Shown piece by piece: positions 16,095-17,322 of a stretch of 61,198 nt of DNA. The stretch spans positions 1-61,198 of the forward strand of contig SKJB01000098.1 of assembly GCA_007116145.1 (NCBI GenBank), written 5' to 3'. Under the pieces are notes generated by a model, which had not been told where the DNA came from, did not search any database, and saw nothing but the letters and a program-made list of their open reading frames with translations. Both the position numbers and the translations under genes were made by a program. Numbering within the stretch: position 1 is the first letter of the stretch; every line of letters begins with the position of its first letter. This DNA is from Limnochordia bacterium. GTDB taxonomy: Bacteria > Bacillota > Limnochordia > Darwinibacteriales > DTU012.

Positions 16095-16745
16095 ATGAAG
16101 CAACCGACAGCGATTTGCCCATCTATTCTTGCCGCTGACTTTAGCGAGCTAGGAAAGGAATTAGATAGGATTTCCCATGCTGATGCCATTCACATTGATA
16201 TTATGGATGGTCATTTTGTACCCAATATCAGCTTTGGACCAATGTTAGCCTACGCAGTACGTAAAACGACAAATACCCCATTAGATATCCATTTAATGGT
16301 GACCGAACCAGAAGCTGTTATTATGCAACTAGCACCACTAAAACCTGAATATATAACCGTTCACTATGAATCTTGTGTGCATTTGCAGCGGGTAGTATCA
16401 GCTATTCGCGCAAATGGGTCTAAGGCAGGAGTAGCTCTTAACCCTCATACCCCAATTGAAGGGATAAAATATCTACTTGCAGATATTGATTTGATTTTGG
16501 TTATGAGCGTCAATCCAGGATACGGCGGTCAACAATTTATTTCTAGCATGTTGACGAAAATTGCCGATGTACACCAAATGATTCAAGGTAGAAATATTCG
16601 CCTCCAAGTGGATGGGGGGGTTACGCAAGATAATGTTGGTCGCATTGTACAAGCAGGTGCTGATATGATTGTAGCAGGATCGGCAATATTTACTGCTGAG
16701 CATGCGAATAACTATATAGATACGATGCGAAAAACCACAAGCTAG
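16095..16745 (+). CDS. rpe: Ribulose-phosphate 3-epimerase
   Basis: Rpe interconverts ribulose 5-phosphate and xylulose 5-phosphate in the pentose phosphate pathway. The 216-residue TIM barrel shows the family motifs ICPSILAADFSELGKEL, HIDIMDGHFVPNISFGP (metal-binding His and catalytic Asp), VNPGYGGQQF and LQVDGGVTQDN. ATG 16095 follows GAGGAGGAG. It is the last gene of the prkC-rsgA-rpe run, closed by a strong two-stem terminator. Confidence 0.97.
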   Translation: MKQPTAICPSILAADFSELGKELDRISHADAIHIDIMDGHFVPNISFGPMLAYAVRKTTNTPLDIHLMVTEPEAVIMQLAPLKPEYITVHYESCVHLQRVVSAIRANGSKAGVALNPHTPIEGIKYLLADIDLILVMSVNPGYGGQQFISSMLTKIADVHQMIQGRNIRLQVDGGVTQDNVGRIVQAGADMIVAGSAIFTAEHANNYIDTMRKTTS

Positions 16746-16782
16746 AGGCACTTAGTGTGCCTCGTTTTGCTTGTGGTTTTTT
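16731..16782 (+). terminator. Two-stem intrinsic terminator after rpe
   Basis: An outer stem AAAACCACAAGC (16731-16742) pairs with GCTTGTGGTTTT (16769-16780) and encloses an inner hairpin GAGGCAC/GTGCCTC (16745-16763). It ends in a run of six T. The outer 5' strand lies in the last rpe codons. Confidence 0.8.
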
Positions 16783-16822: not shown

Positions 16823-16851
16823 TTGACATATTTGAAAATTTGATCTAAAAT
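16823..16851 (+). promoter_or_regulatory. Strong sigma-A promoter in the rpe-thiT interval
   Basis: A perfect -35 TTGACA (16823-16828), an optimal 17-base spacer and TAAAAT (16846-16851). Expected transcription start near 16858. The next coding start is more than 500 bases downstream, so the promoter serves a non-coding or leader RNA. Confidence 0.8.
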
Positions 16852-16857
16852 TAGGTT

Positions 16858-17182
16858 AAAGATACTGAATGATATTAAGTTTACCAAAAGGATGTATAGT
16901 CTGGCAATGAAAGGAGAGGTGTATCGTATCTTACAGTAAATGGTCTGTCTGGCGTAACAGACCAAGATCTCATAGAATTACCACAAAAATAAGACTATTT
17001 CCCTTGGGCATGGATGCGATTGAACTAGCACATTGTTAGTTATGGACCACATATAAACAAAGCCTAGTGGTGCTTACCCAAAATCTACTTAGACTCCAAG
17101 TAACATCATCCACTAGATCTGTTTAGCAAAAATACAAGCCACTTACATCCCTTTTGGTAATTTACAGAAGGGATTTTGCTTT
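16858..17182 (+). ncRNA. Candidate structured non-coding RNA or tandem leader, unknown class
   Basis: Together with the riboswitch below, this fills the 647-base gap between rpe and thiT. A closing helix is formed by 16881-16896 (TTACCAAAAGGATGTA) with 17144-17160, 16 pairs with one bulged base. Inside it I see TAGTCT (16897-16902) with AGACTA (16992-16997), hairpin GGTCTGT/ACAGACC (16942-16963), a seven-pair hairpin at 17023-17041, and CTAGTGG (17064-17070) with CCACTAG (17110-17116) enclosing TACTT/AAGTA. A terminator hairpin ATCCCTT/AAGGGAT (17147-17173) followed by TTTGCTTTT shares bases with the closing helix, so the two exclude one another. I recognise no known RNA family. Confidence 0.6.
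17147..17182 (+). terminator. Terminator of the candidate ncRNA, competing with its closing stem
   Basis: ATCCCTT (17147-17153) pairs with AAGGGAT (17168-17174) around a 14-base loop, followed by a T-rich tail (TTTGCTTTT). The 5' strand is also the 3' strand of the long closing helix of the upstream RNA, an attenuator-like arrangement. Confidence 0.6.
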
Positions 17183-17184
17183 TG

Positions 17185-17213
17185 ATGACGAATAGAGTAG
17201 TTAAGAACATAAT
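17185..17213 (+). promoter_or_regulatory. Possible weak promoter for the TPP riboswitch
   Basis: ATGACG (17185-17190), a 17-base spacer and CATAAT (17208-17213) would start RNA at about the first riboswitch base. The match is modest; transcription could instead come by readthrough from 16823. Confidence 0.35.
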
Positions 17214-17218
17214 AGTGT

Positions 17219-17304
17219 AACCGCTAGGGGAGCTAGTAGCTGAGATTGGTGTAATGCCAAGACCCTTAGAACCTGTTGGATAATTCCAACGTAGGAAAGC
17301 GGTC
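17219..17304 (+). promoter_or_regulatory. TPP riboswitch (THI element)
   Basis: The conserved thiamine pyrophosphate aptamer is plain: closing stem ACCGCT (17220-17225) with AGCGGT (17298-17303), the AGGGGAGC and CTGAGA core, ACCCTTAGAACCTG, and TTGGATAATTCCAACGTAGG. It senses TPP and controls the thiamine uptake gene thiT and its partner thiN immediately downstream. Confidence 0.92.
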
Positions 17305-17322
17305 GGACAGCGGAAAATAGAA

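Follow-up and report, generated by a model that had tools for sequence, protein, structure and literature searches.

The described systems that presumably come nearest to the element reported here are the small RNAs with a UCCC motif, namely LhrC and, beside it, RsaE and FsrA. LhrC of Listeria is a multicopy RNA that depends on a two-component system and uses UCCC sites (PMC4132741). Our element resembles LhrC1-5 in its C-rich UCCC box, in redundant copies of this box and in multicopy genes with their own promoters (PMC4132741). It differs from LhrC1-5, RsaE and FsrA in its size (about 150-500 nt), its one long closing helix, its fixed site after rpe, its single copy in most genomes and an additional Shine-Dalgarno-like box; the likeness in sequence to these RNAs was noted for the short box alone and was judged without a dedicated search. 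With 6S RNA (RF00013) it shares the character of a free RNA of a few hundred nucleotides with a closing stem, but it gives no RF00013 match, and a 6S RNA is encoded at another locus of the genome (G000:C30, 89.8 bits). Riboswitches in which the closing helix (P1) and a terminator exclude each other are similar in that, in four genera, the terminator uses the 3' strand of P1 as its 5' arm; the rest of the order, however, lacks this exclusion, thiT apparently has its own promoter, and no conserved aptamer-like core was identified. Among the papers available to a literature search, none links small or noncoding RNAs to Limnochordia, and the main text of two surveys of noncoding RNAs does not mention rpe or thiT.

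The element occupies positions 16858-17182 of the window, i.e. of the whole 61,198-nt stretch of Limnochordia DNA that was analyzed, and lies between rpe and the thiT leader (Table 1). The initial annotation had judged it unlike known families, and a search of Rfam 15 agrees, giving no convincing match in this region even at E<=10, where the sole match was a snoRNA on the other strand (18.7 bits, below the cut-off of 36). In the comparison of 14 relative loci with Rfam, TPP alone reached the cut-off. The TPP riboswitch annotated directly downstream was recovered as RF00059; it is separate from the element, with no TPP aptamer match in 16858-17182. The promoter recognized earlier as TTGACA-17-TAAAAT has the top score in the region, and the terminator was found again as a 10 bp stem at 17147-17174. 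Upstream of the element, a strong hairpin with a T run lies over the end of rpe (16730-16782) and is likely the rpe terminator.

Table 1. Features of the post-rpe element and of the adjoining thiT leader in the window
Feature	Positions	Strand	Sequence	Remarks
Sigma-A promoter	16823..16851	+	TTGACATATTTGAAAATTTGATCTAAAAT	11/12 consensus matches; contains the conserved -35/spacer core TTGACAWRTYWGANAATT
P1 5' strand (closing helix)	16881..16896	+	TTACCAAAAGGATGTA	Pairs with 17144-17160
Purine-rich Shine-Dalgarno-like box	16910..16921	+	AAAGGAGAGGTG	Kept in most relatives
Conserved box	16975..17013	+	GAATTACCACAAAAATAAGACTATTTCCCTTGGGCATGG	Alignments A1, A3; consensus GATYACCACA, A-rich, CCAWCTCCCT(T)GGGCA
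P1 3' strand	17144..17160	+	TACATCCCTTTTGGTAA	Doubles as 5' arm of the terminator
Intrinsic terminator	17147..17182	+		Imperfect U tract; stem -14.2 kcal/mol
Predicted sigma-H-like promoter for TPP-thiT	17169..17194	+	AGGGATTTTGCTTTTGATGACGAATA	Block in 29/34 relatives
TPP riboswitch aptamer, thiT leader	17216..17314	+		RF00059, 67.7 bits; outside the RNA

To describe the distribution of the element we used 37 genomes of the order, in which rpe as an anchor gave 35 rpe loci; with thiT as the anchor, the search for related loci returned a single distant, uninformative match. At all 35 loci the element directly follows rpe and comprises the sigma-A promoter, P1, the C-rich box and usually the purine box, and a TPP aptamer motif was found downstream of every one except L056. 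The promoter core TTGACAWRTYWGANAATT has 30 exact matches in 28 of the 37 genomes (none for the reversed pattern), one per genome except for three in G026, and all of them fall at the rpe loci already known, plus one in G007, in which rpe was not found. Since this core is conserved and unique to the locus, it suggests a dedicated regulator. Genomes were assigned to families with the anonymous labels f1-f16; the window belongs to f1, and most of the order to f3. The model derived from f3 recognizes f1 relatives weakly (best 32.5 bits) and does not recognize the window's own copy, so that the link between the window and f3 rests on position, promoter, boxes and the DNA similarity to G002, whose counterpart is 75% identical over 109 bases spanning the promoter and the 5' part; the same DNA search matched G001 at the promoter. 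In G026 (L041) we found three tandem elements between rpe and TPP-thiT, with promoters at 2296, about 2690 and 3058, each of which possesses its own promoter, P1-like ends and its own terminator. The box TCCCTGRGC is present in all three copies, the purine and GATTACTCACA boxes in the third only.

The closing helix proposed in the initial annotation stands: it has 16 bp with a single bulged C, and the longer P1 duplex in the window reaches -26.0 kcal/mol. The multibranch fold that it was thought to close is less secure: its "at least four internal helices" were predicted from a single sequence, and we did not find them to be common to the relatives. The folding energy of the whole region 16858-17182 is unremarkable (z -1.4, with 10 of 100 shuffled sequences as good), and 16875-17164 folds better (z -2.5, 1 of 200). 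Covariation among homologs, proposed as a check, is strong in P1 of the relatives. In A1, an alignment of 14 sequences from f3, 95.3% of the cells of P1 and one hairpin are paired, versus 31.7-41.5% when the pairing is slid; for 11 of the 17 pairs at least one sequence has both partners changed, and there are 36 double-changed cells versus 11.5 in shuffles (0/500 as many). A first test of P1, which compared duplex energy with that of shuffled 5' ends, was weak, with 9 of 43 order and class sequences at p<=0.01. A strand-swap statistic, chosen later and after that result, gives for the best contiguous helix between the 5' and 3' ends of the same 43 sequences 25.8 with their own strands versus 18.2+-0.5 with swapped strands (maximum 20.2 in 5000 permutations), and 25.8 versus 18.2+-0.7 in a diverse subset (n=26); the count of double changes in A1 is independent of this statistic. 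Among the order relatives, conserved internal structure was demonstrated for one f3 hairpin and nothing further beyond P1. The signal that exceeds chance is comparative, comprising the sequence boxes, the conserved promoter core and P1 covariation; the folding energy is not decisive.

Analysis of the sequence between the strands of P1 reveals a recurrent series of boxes. The purine-rich, Shine-Dalgarno-like box is kept in most relatives as AAAGGAGGGT and GAGGTGAT. The consensus of f3 reads AGAAAGGAGGGT ... CGATCACC(A), an A-rich stretch and ATACCAnCTCCCTGGGCA, and that of f1 (alignment A3) GATTACCACA ... ACCATCTCCCTTGGGCA. The C-rich box CTCCCT(T)GGGC, a feature of the UCCC-motif trans-acting small RNAs, is found at 35 of the 35 rpe loci of the order, and longer versions of the element from f1, f2 and f5 contain a second copy of it. 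Pairing of the purine box with the C-rich box was considered and rejected for lack of covariation (13.46 for own versus 13.90 for permuted partners, p 0.88).

Outside the order, a box of the form CCC..GGGCANGG is present at the rpe loci of 7 of 21 other genomes of the class, versus 0.07 expected. Besides CCC..GGGCANGG, these seven loci (f7, f11, f15 and f16) exhibit a promoter, a purine-rich box and ends that are complementary to each other; no TPP riboswitch or thiT was seen at any of them, and what follows is, by eye, either other sequence or an oppositely oriented rpmB-like gene. Their elements appear to be related to those of the order by position and architecture, and they may nevertheless have originated independently, since the f3 model gives no match to them. 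The predicted accessibility of the C-rich box differs among the class relatives, and alignment A4 is too poor in information for a class-wide model of this box. In L094 (f12 of the class) two C-rich boxes, ATCCCTTGGACATGACCGG and CCCCCCCGTTGGGCACGACCGG, follow rpe, perhaps as a double form of the element. The C-rich box is absent from the rpe loci in 30 families outside the class, where most of the promoter-like matches at rpe precede an apparent FMN riboswitch; at L119, L126, L129, L130, L133, L136 and L137 the sequence after rpe reads like an FMN riboswitch with rib genes. When the C-rich box in its class form was searched as a pattern across the phylum, ten matches were returned, one of which is the known element of G038 (L106). 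L101, L102, L103, L105, L107, L108 and L110 were rejected as further elements because their surroundings look coding by eye (ORFs are listed for L102 and L108 only); L107 belongs to a class member and the other six come from outside the class, and L104 and L109 were left out.

We consider it very probable that 16858-17182 is an independent small-RNA gene, given the predicted promoter and terminator of its own, the structure conserved in P1 and the lack of a conserved ORF. Its neighborhood suggests another reading, in which the element is a cis-regulatory leader that works in tandem with the TPP riboswitch, P1 being an antiterminator switched by a ligand or a protein and controlling readthrough into TPP-thiT. 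This agrees with the position before TPP-thiT, which is conserved throughout the order, and with the mutual exclusion of P1 and the terminator, which had been proposed from the window and holds there and in L029, L033 and L038 (four f1 genera in all), though not elsewhere in the order; in the window P1 is also the stronger of the two (-26 versus -14.2 kcal/mol). In f3, however, a strong terminator lies beyond P1 and does not overlap it, the tandem copies of G026 are complete, and TPP and thiT are missing from the class relatives. Moreover, thiT apparently has its own promoter at nearly all loci. A sigma-H-like block, AGGnnTT..GAA, was found between the RNA and the TPP aptamer at 29 of 34 loci versus 0.87 expected from shuffles, with a pattern written after the alignment had been seen; of the other five loci three have near versions, judged by eye, and two a sigma-A-like promoter instead. 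In the window its -35 box lies within the terminator of the RNA, in the 3' arm. A stricter version of the pattern has 13 matches in the same genome versus 1 in a control, some of them immediately before genes that look mreB-like or competence-like in translations read by eye. With such a promoter-like block before the aptamer, TPP-thiT most likely starts a transcript of its own and appears to possess a conserved promoter downstream of the RNA. The two options left by the initial annotation thus separate: the free noncoding RNA is favored by the lack of a convincing Rfam match, P1 covariation, the fixed position, the unique promoter core and the G026 tandem copies, and the second sensor ahead of thiT is disfavored by the apparent promoter of thiT, the terminator beyond P1 in most relatives and the class relatives without TPP and thiT. 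We regard the leader as improbable for the element in general; as the exclusion is real in four genera, control of readthrough may still operate within the window's family.

The Shine-Dalgarno-like box raises the further question whether AAAGGAGG is the ribosome-binding site for an encoded product, either a short leader peptide or a small protein. A scan of ORFs of at least 12 codons starting near the purine box does provide a 19-43 codon ORF at about a third of the loci, several of which read S-L-G through the C-rich box, but over half of the loci, the window included, have none. Downstream of the box neither a start codon nor a frame is conserved, single-base variation affects the A-rich spacer, the C-rich box is not read in a constant frame, and the covariation of P1 acts at the level of RNA. 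With no frame common to all loci we conclude that the element is an RNA; short ORFs may occur in single species, and a coding function of the element itself seems very unlikely. The same boxes, conserved without a reading frame (AAAGGAGGGT/GGTGAT and GATYACCACA), could instead be recognition sites of a decoy or scaffold that binds a protein or the ribosome rather than mRNAs, and GATCACC resembles the 3' end of 16S rRNA. We hold this to be unlikely, though less so than a leader of thiT: neither box is present in the first two tandem copies of G026, and GATYACC is not kept in every family of the class.

On balance we lean towards a free-standing small RNA that probably acts in trans through its C-rich, anti-Shine-Dalgarno box. 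An RNA of about 300-325 nt would be transcribed from its own sigma-A promoter, with a dedicated regulator acting at the promoter core, and ended by its own terminator; P1 would join its ends, and the interior would display the Shine-Dalgarno-like purine box, the A-rich stretch and then CUCCCU(U)GGGC. By analogy with the UCCC-motif small RNAs of Firmicutes, the C-rich box could pair with the ribosome-binding sites of target mRNAs, a tentative proposal to which we give somewhat less than even weight, and which does not explain the Shine-Dalgarno-like box and GATYACC. In the window's family, where the terminator takes one of its arms from the 3' strand of P1, the strength of P1 may also set the leakage into TPP-thiT. 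A bolder proposal, which we consider about as improbable as the thiT leader, would make the element a class-wide family of post-rpe RNAs that hold Shine-Dalgarno-like and anti-Shine-Dalgarno-like boxes in one closing helix and act on the translation machinery (the ribosome or the 16S end) rather than on a few mRNAs.

Taken as a small-RNA gene, the locus illustrates that adjoining a riboswitch can mislead on function. The element represents an RNA family that Rfam 15 does not contain and that is kept at one chromosomal place throughout the order and, probably, in several families of the class as well. Its promoter core occurs nowhere else in those genomes, which suggests a dedicated regulator and a role in core physiology.
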